Shown here: positions 3,250-34,048 of the stretch, piece by piece
Position numbering within the stretch: the stretch's first letter is position 1
Layout: the number at the start of each line of letters is the position of its first letter
From: Patescibacteria group bacterium
GTDB taxonomy: Bacteria; Patescibacteriota; Patescibacteriia; JAGPKW01
DNA length: 35,134 nucleotides
NCBI GenBank assembly: GCA_021734125.1
Contig: JAIPJN010000004.1
Location: 1 to 35,134 of the forward strand
Reading direction: 5' to 3'
Notes under the pieces: generated by a model
Databases searched by the model: none
What the model saw: only the letters and a program-made list of their open reading frames with translations
What the model was told of the DNA's origin: nothing
Program-made: the position numbers and the translations under genes

Positions 3250-3272
3250 GTAGGGGCGCACATTGTGTGCCC
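3250..3272 (+). repeat. REP-type palindrome, GGGCGCAC class
   Basis: GTAG (3250-3253) is followed by a near-perfect palindrome (3254-3272, one G.T pair), then CGATAAATAAAAC. This is the first of the GTAG-headed hairpin repeats of this window. Confidence 0.8.
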
Positions 3273-3353
3273 GATAAATAAAACATGAATTATAAAAAAA
3301 TTACACGTTAAATCACGTGCAAATTTATTAAAAAACGTTAATGGATAAATTTT

Positions 3354-3378
3354 GTAGGAACGCGCCGCGGCGCGTTCC
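3354..3378 (+). repeat. REP-type palindrome, GAACGCGCC class
   Basis: GTAG (3354-3357) overlaps a perfect 22-bp palindrome at 3357-3378 (GGAACGCGCCG and its complement). It is pure G+C-rich sequence in an AT-rich gap between two divergent genes. Confidence 0.8.
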
Positions 3379-3451
3379 CACATGAATTATTCAATAAACA
3401 TTATTTATATAATCAAATATGATATTATAAATTATAACAAACTTGTACTAT

Positions 3452-5185
3452 ATGAATAAAAAAGAAATATCAAAAAAACCAGGCGTTTATATATTCTATG
3501 ATAAAAATCATAAAATTTTATATGTAGGTAAAGCAAAAAATTTAAAAAATAGATTAAATACTTATTTTAGAGCAGGAATTTTGGAAAATGAAAACACAAA
3601 AAAATGTAGTGTCCAACGATTATTGGACAATAAAGAAAAATTATTAAGACAAAACGCGGTAGAATTTGAAACTATAATAACAAATTCAGAAAGAGAGGCT
3701 TTAATTTTAGAATCCAATTTAATAAAAAAGCATAAACCAAGATATAATGTAATGTTGAAAGATAATTCTGAATATATTTATTTGAAATATAAATTTGATA
3801 AAGAAAAAATGTATATACCAGAATTGTCTATAATAAGAAAAAAAACTACCGTAGGAACAGGAGAGAATTTATCTCCTGTTCAAAGATCGCTGGACAACGA
3901 AAAATTATATGGTCCTTATACTTCAAAAAAAAGTATAGTTGAAATAATAAAAATATTGTCAAAAACATTTGGATTTGAATGTCTTAAAGTTTCTGAATTA
4001 AATAAAAAATATATAAAAGATAAAAAAGATAAAATAATTTTATCTCCTTGTTTTAATTACCATATAGGAAGATGTAATGGAATTTGTTGCGGAAAAATAG
4101 AAAGATCTGAATATATAGAAACTGTTAAAAATGCTATGTTATTTTTCAGTGGAAAAACTGTGGAAATCAGAAAAAAACTTGTTGAAAAAATGAATATAAA
4201 AGCTGGAAAAAAAGAATATGAAAAAGCTCAAAAAATAAAAGAACAAATATTAAATTTAGATAAAATATCTGAAAATCAAGATGTAAGAGAAATAAAACAA
4301 TCAACAAAAGATATAATAAGCTTTTATAAATATAATAAATCTATATTTATTAACATTTTTAATATAAGAAACGGATTATTATTAGGAAAAAGAAATTTAG
4401 AATTAAAAAATCTTGAAAATGAAAATGAAAAAGAAGAATTTTTGAAAATATATTATCTAAGTAGTGTCCAAAGATCTTTGGACAAAAAAGACAAGCCGAA
4501 AGAAATAGTTTTAGAAAATAATATAGAAAATAAAGATATAGAAAAAATATTAAATATAAAAATAAGAAAATATAATAATAAAAATGAAAGAAATTTAATA
4601 GAACTTGGGAAACAAAACTCAAAAATTTTTATAAAATCTAAAGAAGAAAATAAAAAAATATTATTAGAACTACAAAAAAGACTAAAATTGGATAAAATAC
4701 CAAATAGAATAGAGTGTTTTGATATATCAAATATACAAGGTAAGTATTCTGTTGGAAGTATGAGTGTTGCTATAAAAGGAATAATAGAAAAAAGTGAGTA
4801 TAGAAAATTCAAAATAAAAGAAGATTATAATGATAAACCAAATGATTTTTTAATGCTTTCAGAAATTATAAAAAGAAGATTATCCAATAAAAATATAAAA
4901 GCTTGGGGATTGCCAGATTTAATAGTATTAGATGGCGGAAAGCCACAACTTAATACAATATTAAAATTAAAAAAAAATAAAAAATACAAAAATATATTAA
5001 ATAAAATAAATATAGTGGCTTTAGCTAAAAAAAATGAACTTATATATTTCTATAAAAATGAAAAATTAGAAGAGGTATTTGGAGAAAAATTATTTTTAAT
5101 AAGACAATTAAGAGATGAGGCACATAGATTTGGAATAAAATATCACCGACAACGTCGGGATAAATCATGGAAAATTAATAAATAA
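3452..5185 (+). CDS. uvrC: UvrABC system protein C, lacking the C-terminal HhH domain
   Basis: UvrC makes both incisions in nucleotide excision repair once UvrB is loaded at a lesion. Seen: GIY-YIG nuclease domain (GVY at 11-13, YVGKAKNLKNR from about 26), a Cys cluster CFNYHIGRCNGIC near 200-212, a UVR helix pair near 255 (YEKAQKIKEQI) and the RNase H-like C-terminal nuclease (FDISNIQGKYSVGSMS near 420, LDGGKPQL near 490, RDEAHRFG near 554). ATG 3452 is preferred to an in-frame TTG at 3443. The protein stops about 10 residues after the HRxxR motif, so the usual tandem helix-hairpin-helix is absent. Three REP-type palindromes lie in frame (residues about 52-60, 134-149, 337-345), each encoding a peptide close to VQRSLDN. 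Function is confident; activity with these changes is inferred. Confidence 0.93.
   Translation: MNKKEISKKPGVYIFYDKNHKILYVGKAKNLKNRLNTYFRAGILENENTKKCSVQRLLDNKEKLLRQNAVEFETIITNSEREALILESNLIKKHKPRYNVMLKDNSEYIYLKYKFDKEKMYIPELSIIRKKTTVGTGENLSPVQRSLDNEKLYGPYTSKKSIVEIIKILSKTFGFECLKVSELNKKYIKDKKDKIILSPCFNYHIGRCNGICCGKIERSEYIETVKNAMLFFSGKTVEIRKKLVEKMNIKAGKKEYEKAQKIKEQILNLDKISENQDVREIKQSTKDIISFYKYNKSIFINIFNIRNGLLLGKRNLELKNLENENEKEEFLKIYYLSSVQRSLDKKDKPKEIVLENNIENKDIEKILNIKIRKYNNKNERNLIELGKQNSKIFIKSKEENKKILLELQKRLKLDKIPNRIECFDISNIQGKYSVGSMSVAIKGIIEKSEYRKFKIKEDYNDKPNDFLMLSEIIKRRLSNKNIKAWGLPDLIVLDGGKPQLNTILKLKKNKKYKNILNKINIVALAKKNELIYFYKNEKLEEVFGEKLFLIRQLRDEAHRFGIKYHRQRRDKSWKINK
3606..3629 (+). repeat. In-frame REP-type palindrome 1 inside uvrC
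   Basis: GTAG (3606-3609) then TGTCCAA (3610-3616) pairing with TTGGACA (3623-3629). It encodes C52-S-V-Q-R-L-L-D-N60, in the usually variable loop between the GIY-YIG core strand and the conserved SEREALILE segment. Confidence 0.8.
3851..3895 (+). repeat. In-frame composite REP-type palindrome 2 inside uvrC
   Basis: GTAG (3851-3854) heads a hairpin with perfect 10-bp arms GAACAGGAGA (3855-3864) and TCTCCTGTTC (3872-3881). A second, imperfect palindrome overlaps its end (3878-3895, GTTCAAAGATCGCTGGAC), resembling the perfect copy at 33900-33917. Together they encode VGTGENLSPVQRSLDN (residues 134-149), just before the conserved YGPY motif. Confidence 0.75.
4461..4484 (+). repeat. In-frame REP-type palindrome 3 inside uvrC
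   Basis: GTAG (4461-4464) followed by a perfect 20-bp palindrome, TGTCCAAAGA and its complement (4465-4484). It encodes S-S-V-Q-R-S-L-D-K (337-345), between the IYYL and PKEIV segments that are close together in ordinary UvrC proteins. Confidence 0.82.
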
Positions 5186-5190
5186 AATTT

Positions 5191-5213
5191 GTAGGGGCGC
5201 ACATTGTGCGCCC
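5191..5213 (+). repeat. REP-type palindrome, GGGCGCAC class
   Basis: GTAG (5191-5194) plus a perfect palindrome GGGCGCACATTGTGCGCCC (5195-5213). It starts 5 nt after the uvrC stop codon and may form the 3' end of its mRNA. Confidence 0.82.
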
Positions 5214-5246
5214 GTTTTGTTTATAAAAAAAATTAATAAACATATT

Positions 5247-5270
5247 GTAGTGGCCAGCCATGGCTGGCCA
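5247..5270 (+). repeat. REP-type palindrome, GGCCAGCC class
   Basis: GTAG (5247-5250) then TGGCCAGCCATGGCTGGCCA (5251-5270), a perfect palindrome. It is followed 12 nt later by CGCCCGATAAATAAAACG, the right flank of the other class, as if one repeat had landed in or replaced part of another. Confidence 0.82.
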
Positions 5271-5318
5271 TAAAAATTACACGCCCGATAAATAAAACGA
5301 TAATATATTTTATATTTT

Positions 5319-5341
5319 GTAGGGGCGCATATTGTGCGCCC
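5319..5341 (+). repeat. REP-type palindrome, GGGCGCAC class
   Basis: GTAG (5319-5322) plus GGGCGCATATTGTGCGCCC (5323-5341), one mismatched pair relative to the copy at 5191. Confidence 0.8.
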
Positions 5342-5417
5342 GATGAATAAAATGTGGAAATTCACATTAAAAATGTGCAAATTTATCAAATAATATTAAT
5401 ATATAAAATATTGATTT

Positions 5418-5440
5418 GTAGTGACCAACCATGGTTGGTC
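5418..5440 (+). repeat. REP-type palindrome, GACCAACC class
   Basis: GTAG (5418-5421) then T and GACCAACCATGGTTGGTC (5423-5440), a perfect palindrome. The changes from the GGCCAGCC class are paired on both arms, so the hairpin is kept. Confidence 0.8.
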
Positions 5441-5511
5441 ATAAAATATTATTCGCCCGATAAATAAAACGATAATATATTTTATATAATGTATGTTCCC
5501 AAAAAAAACAA

Positions 5512-5540
5512 TTGACCATAAAAAACAAACATGCTATATT
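5512..5540 (+). promoter_or_regulatory. nusA promoter
   Basis: TTGACC (5512-5517), a 17-bp spacer and TATATT (5535-5540) with TGC directly before it (extended -10). The predicted start near 5547 leaves a leader of about 75 nt before ATG 5621. The leader contains a 12-bp palindrome TAATCCGGATTA (5571-5582) of unknown role. Confidence 0.65.
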
Positions 5541-5620
5541 ACAAATATAATGATTGTAAGATTTATAGGCTAATCCGGATTATGGATTGGTTTATTTTTT
5601 TAAAAAATTAACAAAAATAT

Positions 5621-6796
5621 ATGGCAAATGAAATAAAAACAGCAATAGAAATAATTTGTGAAGAAAAAGGTTTAAAAGAAGAAGTGATTTTAGAAACTTT
5701 GAATCAAGCCTTAGCTGCAGCTTATAGAAAAGAATATTTAGCTGATAAAAATAACAATGTAAAAGCATTATTTAATATAGAAAATGGATCTATAAAGGTT
5801 TGGGATGAAAAAACTGTAGTAGAAGATATGGAATTAGATGAAAATGGAAAAGTTATACAAGATGAAGACACTCCAGAAGAAGAAAAGAAAAAATTCCACC
5901 CAAGACATGAAATAATGTTAAAAGATGCTAAAAAAATCAGAAAAGGAGCAAAAATAGGAGATGTAATAAAAGAAGAATTAGAATCAAAAAACGATTTTGG
6001 TAGAATAGCAGCACAAACAGCAAAACAAGTTATTATGCAAAAATTAAAAGAAGCAGAAAAAGAAATGTTATTTAGTGAATATAAAGATAAAGAGAAAACA
6101 ATAATATCAGGTGTTATACAAAGATATGAGAAAAATTTTGTTATAGTAAATTTAGGAAATGGAACAGCAACTTTACCTAAAGAAGAACAAATAGAAAGCG
6201 AAAGATATAATACAGGAGCAAGAATGAAATTCTATATCAAAGAAGTTTATCAAGATATCAGAGGCACAAAAGTAATATTATCTAGAACTAGCCCAGAACT
6301 TGTAAAACAACTATTTACATTAGAAGTACCGGAAATAACAAATGGAATAGTTCTTATAAAATCAATAGCAAGAGAAGCTGGGAAAAGAACTAAAATGTCT
6401 GTATATACAAACCAAGAAAATATAGATCCTATAGGCTCTTGTGTTGGGCAAAGAGGAATAAGAATTAACTCTATAACAGAAGAATTGGGAGGTGAAAAAA
6501 TAGATATTATAGAATATCAAGAAGATATAAAAGAATATATAATAAATGCATTACTTCCTGCTAAAATAGATAATGTAATTATAGTTGATGAAAAAAAGAA
6601 AGAAGTAGAAGTAAAAGTAGATCAAACTCAATTTTCTCTAGCAATAGGTAAACAAGGTCAAAATGTTAGATTGGCATCAAAATTAACAGGATGGAAAATT
6701 AATATAGATCAAGGAGAATTCATGGAAATATTTGATGAAGATGAAATTGAAAAAAATGAAACAAAAAAAATAAATAAAAAAATCATAGAAGAATAA
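5621..6796 (+). CDS. nusA: Transcription termination/antitermination factor NusA
   Basis: NusA binds RNA polymerase and modulates pausing, termination and antitermination. The 391 aa contain the N-terminal polymerase-binding domain with an acidic insertion near 75-95 (DEDTPEEEKKK), FGRIAAQTAKQVIMQKLKEAE near 128-148, an S1 domain from about 160, SRTSPELVKQLFTLEVPEI near 222-240 and two KH domains (IDPIGSCVGQRGIRINSI near 265 and FSLAIGKQGQNVRLASKL near 345). There are no C-terminal acidic repeats, as in many short NusA proteins. It stands alone here: the usual partners infB and rbfA lie 24 kb away on the other strand, and rimP is not seen. A good promoter lies upstream; no clear Shine-Dalgarno. 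Confidence 0.96.
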   Translation: MANEIKTAIEIICEEKGLKEEVILETLNQALAAAYRKEYLADKNNNVKALFNIENGSIKVWDEKTVVEDMELDENGKVIQDEDTPEEEKKKFHPRHEIMLKDAKKIRKGAKIGDVIKEELESKNDFGRIAAQTAKQVIMQKLKEAEKEMLFSEYKDKEKTIISGVIQRYEKNFVIVNLGNGTATLPKEEQIESERYNTGARMKFYIKEVYQDIRGTKVILSRTSPELVKQLFTLEVPEITNGIVLIKSIAREAGKRTKMSVYTNQENIDPIGSCVGQRGIRINSITEELGGEKIDIIEYQEDIKEYIINALLPAKIDNVIIVDEKKKEVEVKVDQTQFSLAIGKQGQNVRLASKLTGWKINIDQGEFMEIFDEDEIEKNETKKINKKIIEE

Positions 6797-6810
6797 TATA
6801 TATTATATTT

Positions 6811-6834
6811 GTAGTGGCCAGCGATCGCTGGCCA
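6811..6834 (+). repeat. REP-type palindrome, GGCCAGCG class
   Basis: GTAG (6811-6814) then TGGCCAGCGATCGCTGGCCA (6815-6834), a perfect palindrome beginning 14 nt after the nusA stop. Confidence 0.82.
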
Positions 6835-6878
6835 TGCACATTGTGCGCCCGATTTATTATAATGGATAAATATTAATT

Positions 6879-6902
6879 GTAGTGGCCAGCCATGGCTGGC
6901 CA
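6879..6902 (+). repeat. REP-type palindrome, GGCCAGCC class
   Basis: GTAG (6879-6882) then TGGCCAGCCATGGCTGGCCA (6883-6902), identical to the copy at 5247-5270. Confidence 0.82.
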
Positions 6903-6993
6903 TTTGAACATTGTGTGCCCGATTGATTGAACAATAATATATTTTATATAACGTGTAAATTTATCAAATAACATTAATTTATAAATATTAATT

Positions 6994-7025
6994 GTAGGAA
7001 CAGGACGACATTAGTCGTCCTGTTC
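6994..7025 (+). repeat. REP-type hairpin, GAACAGGACGAC class
   Basis: GTAG (6994-6997) heads perfect 12-bp arms GAACAGGACGAC (6998-7009) and GTCGTCCTGTTC (7014-7025) around ATTA. The same arms recur without GTAG at 7256-7283, and a relative lies inside uvrC at 3851-3881. Confidence 0.82.
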
Positions 7026-7177
7026 TTTTGCAAAAAAACGATAATATATATTATAATTTTTAATAAAAACGCACATCAAATAACATGTAATTTTTACAAA
7101 AACATATTATTCAAAATAAAATATATATCAAAAAATGTGCAATAAAAAAACGGATTTTATTTATACAAAAACACGAT

Positions 7178-7200
7178 GGTCAGCCATGGCTGACCACTAC
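7178..7200 (-). repeat. REP-type palindrome, GGTCAGCC class, reverse orientation
   Basis: Read on the minus strand: GTAG (7200-7197), then TG and GTCAGCCATGGCTGAC with a closing C. This is one of three reversed copies in the window. Confidence 0.8.
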
Positions 7201-31934: not shown

Positions 31935-32414
31935 AAGTTATAACCCGTATATACAATTTAATATATTAAATTGTATACCAGGTATATAACTTTTTTTATA
32001 AAAATTTATTAATTTTGGAAAATTAATTTTTAATAAATTTTCATTAAATCACGTGAAATTAGGTTCTACATAGAAAAATAATTTTTTAAAAAATAGCTTA
32101 TATTAAACAAAAAATATTTTAAAATTAAAATGTTCCACAAAAAAATGTGCAAAATTCATCAATATATTAAAACACAAAAATAAATATTTTTCTTATAAAA
32201 TTGTAGGGAATAAGCGTAAATTGTAATACATATATACAACTTAAGATATAAAATTGTAAACCGTTTATACAATTTTATTTTTATTAAATTTATCCTTTTT
32301 TAATTAATTTTATAAAGTTATACACAATTACTATGATTTTAATAAAAAATTGTATACCATATATACAATTTCCTATATAAAAATATATAAAGTTGTACCC
32401 CATGTGTACAATTT
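31935..32414. repeat. Array of six 25-bp near-palindromes (AAATTGTA..TACAATTT)
   Basis: Six copies of a 25-26 bp near-palindrome lie at 31935-31959, 31968-31993, 32218-32242, 32251-32275, 32347-32371 and 32390-32414. The consensus is AARTTGTATACC, 2-3 nt, then TATACAAYTT; differences between arms are often G-T type. They come in close pairs with 8 nt (copies 1-2 and 3-4) or 18 nt (5-6) between members. They lack GTAG and are unlike the G+C-rich REP hairpins. A DnaA-box match TTATACACA lies at 32318-32326. The gap is where gene direction diverges. Operators, iterons or a second repeat family are possible. Confidence 0.7.
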
Positions 32415-33530: not shown

Positions 33531-33697
33531 CTAGGTTAGTAAACTAACACACGGCATGAAGCCGACTTTCGCATATAAAAGACTATTTATATTTTAATAA
33601 TAACATTTTTATAAAAATATGCAATAGGATTTTCAACAGTTTTTAGTAATTTAAATATCTCTCTTTAAAACGATACAAAAACGAAAAAATAAAAAAA
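33531..33697. other. Spacer after the DUF3800 gene
   Basis: No gene is seen. It starts with two small hairpins: GTTAGT/ACTAAC (33535-33540 with 33543-33548) and CGGC/GCCG (33552-33555 with 33561-33564). These may mark the end of the DUF3800 transcript, though no T tract follows directly. The rest is plain AT-rich sequence. Confidence 0.4.
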
Positions 33698-33751
33698 TCC
33701 AAACATGGTTGGACGCTACAATTTTTTATTTGGTGCCCCCAAGTGGACTTG
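33672..33751. repeat. Direct repeat copy A: reversed REP plus tRNA-Arg 3' end
   Basis: A stretch with an ACGAAAAAATAA flank, a reversed REP-type palindrome (TCCAAACATGGTTGGA 33698-33713, CTAC 33716-33719), then CAATTTTTTATT and 21 bp of the tRNA-Arg 3' end (33731-33751). The same order recurs at 33879-33954. Confidence 0.75.
33698..33719 (-). repeat. REP-type palindrome, GTCCAACC class, reverse orientation
   Basis: Minus strand: GTAG (33719-33716), then CG and TCCAACCATGTTTGGA, one mismatched pair. Confidence 0.75.
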
Positions 33752-33870
33752 CCATTCGATAGACTTGCCTAACGGCAAGTCTTCTCATGGCCTCTCTCGC
33801 CATGTTCGCCTTTTCGGATGTGTTTTAATAACACATCCTCAAAACTCACATAAGGCTCTGAGTTTCAGGT
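33752..33870. repeat. Structured element with four consecutive hairpins
   Basis: Four stem-loops follow each other: AGACTTGCC/GGCAAGTCT (33761-33769, 33774-33782), CATGGC/GCCATG (33786-33791, 33799-33804), GGATGTGTT/AACACATCC (33816-33824, 33830-33838) and AAACTCA/TGAGTTT (33842-33848, 33859-33865). It is richer in G+C than its surroundings. Bases 33816-33852 recur exactly, inverted, at 35098-35134. It could be a mobile repeat or a structured RNA; no frame in it looks coding. Confidence 0.7.
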
Positions 33871-33878
33871 CCTAAGAT

Positions 33879-33954
33879 GATATTAAAACGAAAAAATAAG
33901 TCCAGCGATCGCTGGACGCTACAATTTTTTATTTGGTGCCCCCAAGTGGACTTG
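33879..33954. repeat. Direct repeat copy B: reversed REP plus tRNA-Arg 3' end
   Basis: Second copy of the block at 33672-33751. The flanks and the CGCTACAATTTTTTATT stretch are the same, but the palindrome core differs (perfect GTCCAGCGATCGCTGGAC, 33900-33917). Confidence 0.75.
33900..33922 (-). repeat. REP-type palindrome, GTCCAGCG class, reverse orientation
   Basis: Minus strand: GTAG (33922-33919), C, then the perfect 18-bp palindrome GTCCAGCGATCGCTGGAC (33917-33900). A decayed relative is inside uvrC at 3878-3895. Confidence 0.8.
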
Positions 33955-33969
33955 AACCACTATCGAGGG
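33934..33969 (-). pseudogene. tRNA-Arg 3'-half fragment (tandem copy)
   Basis: 36 bp identical to the 3' part of the adjacent tRNA-Arg (33973-34008), from the CCA end through the T arm into the variable region, repeated with a 39-bp period. It has no 5' half, so it cannot make a tRNA. A shorter third copy is at 33731-33751. Confidence 0.85.
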
Positions 33970-33972
33970 TTT

Positions 33973-34048
33973 TGGTGCCCCCAAGTGGACTTGAACCACT
34001 ATCGAGGGATTAGGAATCCCTTGTTCTATCCAGTTGAACTATGGGTGC
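33973..34048 (-). tRNA. tRNA-Arg (anticodon CCT)
   Basis: 76 nt on the minus strand, cloverleaf complete: acceptor GCACCCA with TGGGGGC (one A-G mismatch at pair 3-70), D stem GTTC/GAAC, anticodon stem AGGGA/TCCCT with loop TTCCTAA (anticodon CCT, reads AGG), T stem AGTGG/CCACT with TTCAAGT, discriminator A and an encoded CCA. Two partial copies of its 3' end lie just downstream. Confidence 0.93.

Follow-up and report, generated by a model that had tools for sequence, protein, structure and literature searches.

Three segments of the uvrC gene are, by a reading to which we assign a probability of about 0.86, in-frame REP hairpins that came from a dense local cluster of such repeats, are tolerated by the protein and were likely mobilised by RAYT enzymes. 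The gene lies in the window, the 35,134-nt stretch of DNA analysed here, which is contig C24 of an AT-rich genome of 663 kb that is about 70% complete. The GTAG-headed palindromes that the first-pass annotation had described in uvrC are located exactly where it had placed them (Table 1), and all three do share one reading frame. UvrC scores 363 bits against NCBIfam TIGR00194 (cut-off 285), and in the alignment with relatives its motifs are unbroken despite the inserted segments. At window position 5180, UvrC stops after the RNase H domain and the usual helix-hairpin-helix tail is absent; the two same-family UvrCs are short as well.

The three sites differ in their construction. Copies 1 and 3 are exact matches to the GTAGNGNCCANNNATNNNTGGNC pattern and are read in frame as CSVQRLLDN and SSVQRSLDK, so that these two are of one design. 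Site 2, read as VGTGENLSPVQRSLDN, is not the same element but a composite in which a type-C REP runs at GTTC into the right-hand (3′) portion of a type-B REP, the source of its VQRSLDN. This fusion could have arisen by insertion of a second element into one already present, an order of events that we propose tentatively. At the DNA level, hairpins 1, 2 and 3 fold better than shuffled sequences, with z values of −4.1, −3.6 and −4.8, respectively. Scored with 10-bp arms and at most two mismatches, uvrC contains three GTAG palindromes, and the maximum is two in 3000 synonymous-codon shuffles and likewise two in 3000 codon-order shuffles. Specifically for copy 3, the probability that its peptide would be encoded by a perfect palindrome with 9-bp arms under the codon usage of the genome is about 1.6e-4.

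Table 1. GTAG-headed palindromes of the window and REP-derived arrays in other genes (window positions unless a contig and locus are given).
Feature	Position	Strand	Description
GTAG palindrome	3250..3272	+	GTAGGGGCGCAC type; intergenic, upstream of uvrC
GTAG palindrome	3354..3377	+	GTAGGAACGCGCC type; intergenic, upstream of uvrC
uvrC	3455..5185	+	576 aa, frame intact, three REP-derived segments; TIGR00194, Pfam GIY-YIG and UvrC RNase H domains
Type-B REP 1 in uvrC	3606..3629	+	GTAGTGTCCAACGATTATTGGACA; read CSVQRLLDN; within 13-aa net insertion; palindrome with 2 mismatches in 10-bp arms
Type-C REP in uvrC	3851..3881	+	GTAGGAACAGGAGAGAATTTATCTCCTGTTC; read VGTGENLSPVQ; matches 31-33 bp family
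Type-B REP 3′ half, fused to type-C copy	3878..3897	+	GTTCAAAGATCGCTGGACAA; read VQRSLDN; one mismatch to type-B coding pattern
Type-B REP 3 in uvrC	4461..4484	+	GTAGTGTCCAAAGATCTTTGGACA; perfect palindrome; read SSVQRSLDK; 7-aa net insertion
GTAG palindrome	5191..5213	+	intergenic, right behind uvrC stop
Type-B REP	5247..5270	+	TGGCCAGCCATGGCTGGCCA; intergenic
GTAG palindrome	5319..5341	+	intergenic
Type-B REP	5418..5441	+	intergenic
Type-B REP	6811..6834	+	intergenic, 3′ of nusA
Type-B REP	6879..6902	+	intergenic, 3′ of nusA
Type-C REP	6994..7025	+	intergenic
Type-B REP	7177..7200	-	intergenic
Type-B REP	33900..33922	-	intergenic; GTCCA...TGGAC arms as in uvrC copies
glyS insert	G000:C14, L105 5065-6456		four tandem 24-nt REP-derived units (SSGQRSLTSTNQRSLDNTNQQSLTSTNQKSLDNK), 33 aa
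truB array	G000:C13, L097 4482-5264		about 38 N-terminal residues from 39-nt REP-derived units

The elements in uvrC belong to families with roughly a hundred genomic copies. The type-B element consists of GTAG followed by a 20-nt palindrome (TGNCCANNNATNNNTGGNCA and variants), and the GTAGNGNCCANNNATNNNTGGNC pattern has 90 matches on both strands of the 663-kb genome with at most two mismatches, and none when reversed as a control. The type-C REP (GTAGGAACAGGA...TCCTGTTC) is matched 13 times in forward and 7 times in reverse orientation across the genome. In 286 kb sampled around repeat copies, we count 113 GTAG palindromes of several types, uvrC copy 1 falling narrowly under the threshold of this count. 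Both the uvrC copies and these 113 are palindromes of 20-40 bp with the tetranucleotide GTAG at one of their ends and, as is typical of REPs, the copies are many, dispersed and mainly intergenic: only 14 of the 113 lie within called genes, in sampled DNA that is 83.5% coding. Additionally, 26 of the 113 are paired on opposite strands as head-to-head dimers. Across the phylum, 379 further genomes contain no match to the coding-type pattern; for the broader type-B pattern, the only other matches in the class are single ones in two genomes. In public genomes, the coding-type palindrome has 13 scattered matches in unrelated taxa, about the estimated chance number.

Within the window, 13 of the 15 GTAG palindromes are gathered in the 3.95 kb around uvrC-nusA (3250-7200); nusA, in the middle of this cluster, has none, nor does the DNA from 7200 to about 33690. 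Because uvrC sits in a REP hot spot, no special attraction is needed to explain three hits in this gene. Towards the end of the window (33688-34048), the 3′ end of a tRNA-Arg (CCT) is partially copied at 33729 and 33932, each copy adjoining a REP, and a 60-nt inverted repeat pairs 33816-33875 with the contig end. AT-rich palindromic repeats of a different class (AAATTGTATACC...TATACAATTT) lie at 31935-32394, upstream of an IF-2-like gene.

The expectation that matching copies would be found elsewhere is borne out by many, coding as well as intergenic. The type-B element is present in the uvrC reading frame in glyS, truB, rpsA, a gene for a C39-peptidase-like protein and one for an unknown protein of 536 aa, which holds three clear copies and several degenerate ones. 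The 33-aa insert of GlyRS is missing from 14 comparable relatives. The same-family TruB can be aligned from residue 39 only, and the TruB array could lie partly upstream of the true start. In rpsA (G000:C8, L104 4651, 4815), a REP in the C-terminal tail of S1 is accompanied by a near-identical copy with matching flanks just past the stop, which looks like a duplication of the tail followed by truncation. A TraG/VirD4-like coupling protein (G000:C30, L111 5345-7507, minus strand) contains several other REP types read in frame, which encode VGANSVSP, VGTRHGAFQ and VGTGQAPCPIR in its low-complexity C-terminal tail. Apparent N-terminal insertions in SpoU-like and MurC-like proteins and in some short ORFs were left uncounted, the true start being probably downstream.

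That the same peptide recurs in these proteins is largely due to stops in the other frames together with a forward bias shared by the intergenic copies. All nine type-B coding copies, which are partly non-independent (three lie in one protein, two of these in a duplicated block), are in forward orientation and a single phase. Single intergenic copies between co-directional genes likewise favour the forward orientation (31 versus 11, p=0.003). Among the forward phases, one is always stopped by the TAG of GTAG and a second by TGA in 6 of 9. We therefore rejected the single frame as strong evidence for selection, given the forward bias and the closure of frame 2 by TAG and, in most copies, of frame 0 by TGA. 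What the coding copies encode in that phase is nevertheless distinct from what non-coding copies would encode in the same phase, some of the 57 non-coding copies representing both strands of a single head-to-head dimer. Specifically, a T before GTAG, which gives Cys, is found in 1 of 9 coding versus 45 of 57 non-coding copies (p=1.6e-4), Trp in 1 of 9 versus 26 of 57, and the mean hydropathy is −0.97 versus −0.19 (p=4e-4). In addition, coding copies more often have TGGTCA arms (5/9, against 2/48 loci; p=6e-4). This contrast between coding and non-coding copies does point to selection acting on the protein.

A stronger version of such selection would be a coding-resident REP sublineage, selected for its encoded peptide, that persists, duplicates in tandem and spreads between genes solely in the form of in-frame protein linkers. 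Its variants would be the TGGTCA arms with a GATC centre, Gly or Ser replacing Cys before the hairpin, and a derived unit (AGTACAAATCAACGATC). This unit and its variants have five genomic occurrences, exclusively in glyS and truB, which suggests transfer between these two genes, because independent change hardly explains a shared derived unit. We regard such a sublineage as unlikely. Less likely still is that the peptide is a selected, adaptive module conferring a shared property on UvrC, GlyRS, TruB and S1, such as a binding tag, regulation or RNA/DNA contact. The presence of one peptide across several nucleic-acid proteins, its tandem amplification in glyS and truB, and the preference of published REP hits for repair proteins, tRNA synthetases and truB (PMC3733652) are what such a module would predict, but frame constraints and orientation bias already yield the peptide, tolerance alone predicts hydrophilic filtering, and the unknown and peptidase-like proteins carry insertions too. 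We accordingly hold any adaptive role of the segments with low confidence.

Comparison with related UvrCs shows what has been added to this protein. The alignment comprises 21 relatives of the same class, two of them of the same family and none of the same genus, the nearest being 48% identical; a scan of public genomes with this UvrC found no relatives. The 13-aa segment with CSVQRLLDN and the 7-aa segment with SVQRSLD at site 3 are each found in 0 of the 21, missing outright with no diverged DNA in their place, and at sites 1 and 3 the length is otherwise nearly constant across the alignment. The idea that each segment falls in a variable loop consequently fits site 2 and fails for sites 1 and 3. 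Site 2 is a naturally length-variable loop, which is longer also in both same-family genomes, there in ordinary non-palindromic DNA. The net gains at sites 1 and 3, whose borders are alignment-dependent, are 39 and 21 nt, unequal to the 24-nt element. In the inserts of uvrC, glyS and rpsA, 21 of 68 codons are CGA, TCG, CTG, GTC, GAC or ACC, against 0.95% genome-wide; this set was picked once the repeats had been seen, so that the tiny p-value is descriptive only. The rates per thousand codons in 193 other genes are 0.34 for CGA, 0.43 for CTG, 0.77 for TCG and 1.2 for GTC.

These data bear on whether the segments might be native UvrC loops whose DNA is palindromic by accident and whose likeness to VQRSLDN is chance or convergence. 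A native QRLVE is indeed present close to site 1 in some solved UvrCs, and segment 1 could be partly native, converged sequence, though the same-family relatives are without it; the longer site 2 loop of these relatives fits native loops as well. Three GTAG-headed palindromes nevertheless arise in none of 6000 shuffles, the segments are rich in rare codons, the sequence recurs identically in intergenic DNA and unrelated genes, and segments 1 and 3 have no counterpart among the 21 relatives, which together make native loops very improbable. The earlier proposal of a mobile GTAG/REP hairpin that adds protein segments is thus upheld by the family copies, the absence from relatives and the rare codons, from which we infer movement. 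Hardly credible is that the hairpins are skipped in translation or cut from the mRNA, adding no protein segment, as with mitochondrial byp elements: known bypass elements do include hairpins of this size, but the coding copies are all in frame and stop-free and show an amino-acid-level filter that would be needless if they were skipped.

Candidate mobilising enzymes are encoded in the same genome. Two RAYT-like genes match NF047646 with E values of about 1e-16 and about 61 bits each, below the curated cut-off of 80. The first, in L031 (E 1.1e-16, 61 bits), also matches Pfam Y1_Tnp with 31.5 bits (cut-off 23) and has GTAG palindromes on either side, which are of the GTAGGGGCGCAC type and not the uvrC type. 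The second (G000:C28, L109 2719-3273, minus strand) itself carries an in-frame REP, read CRDAPWCVR, between the HxH motif and the C-terminal part, which the L031 gene is without. Other RAYTs recognise single-stranded GTAG hairpins in vitro and cut at a nearby CT or CA (PMC8266576). It is plausible that the uvrC-type REPs are mobilised by these RAYT-like enzymes. In the mechanism that we propose, GTAG-type REPs with hairpins of about 24-31 nt would enter uvrC out of the dense local cluster, one of the two RAYT-like tyrosine transposases being the likely mobiliser, acting on single-stranded hairpins. The element would enter mainly in the transcribed orientation, in which the forward stops TAG and, often, TGA leave the VQRSLDN frame. 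Selection would then remove the copies that lose the frame and the Cys- or Trp-bearing, hydrophobic versions, and the survivors would keep the frame and lengthen UvrC by short, hydrophilic stretches that it tolerates. The segments are presumably translated, with a probably near-neutral effect on UvrC.

Intragenic GTAG REPs were reported in 2013 in uvrA, uvrB, tRNA synthetase genes and truB of other bacteria, where a gene may hold one copy, two copies or a cluster that encodes tens of residues (Di Nocera et al., PMC3733652). The elements described here resemble them in being GTAG-tagged palindromes of 20-40 bp that are mostly intergenic, RAYT-associated and in some cases within ORFs. They differ in their species-specific stem, their lineage and the three uvrC sites, as well as in the contrast measured between coding copies and non-coding ones and in a derived tandem unit confined to glyS and truB. 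The authors of that report had already compared intragenic GTAG REPs with Rickettsia palindromic elements, among which the short intragenic repeats RPE-4 and RPE-6 of R. conorii are of the CGTC type and RPE-1 is longer (PMC3733652). Like those elements, the present repeats are palindromes in frame in functional genes (uvrC, glyS and rpsA) that add tolerated segments. Their GTAG head and length of 24-31 bp, in place of a CGTC head or the long body of RPE-1, agree with the distinction from the Rickettsia elements drawn in the first-pass annotation. REPtrons, in which GTAG-hairpin repeats flank the gene of a Y1 tyrosine transposase, TnpA-REP or RAYT (PMC8266576), are similar in arrangement; here, the RAYT is putative, scoring under the curated cut-off, and the flanking palindromes are of the GTAGGGGCGCAC type rather than that of uvrC. 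Our literature search found no paper combining "repetitive extragenic palindromic" with "candidate phyla radiation". Intragenic GTAG REPs are thus known elsewhere, and what is new is a lineage-specific, well-resolved and unusually clear and dense case.

Taken together, these findings indicate that a small mobile hairpin can lengthen housekeeping proteins (UvrC, GlyRS, S1 and probably TruB) in a bacterium with a reduced genome that is distant from Rickettsia, and that it leaves a measurable signature, the added peptides passing a protein-level filter. Because the same gene classes (Uvr, tRNA synthetases and truB) are hit in unrelated bacteria, it becomes testable whether these genes are hit through a bias or are simply those that tolerate insertions best.
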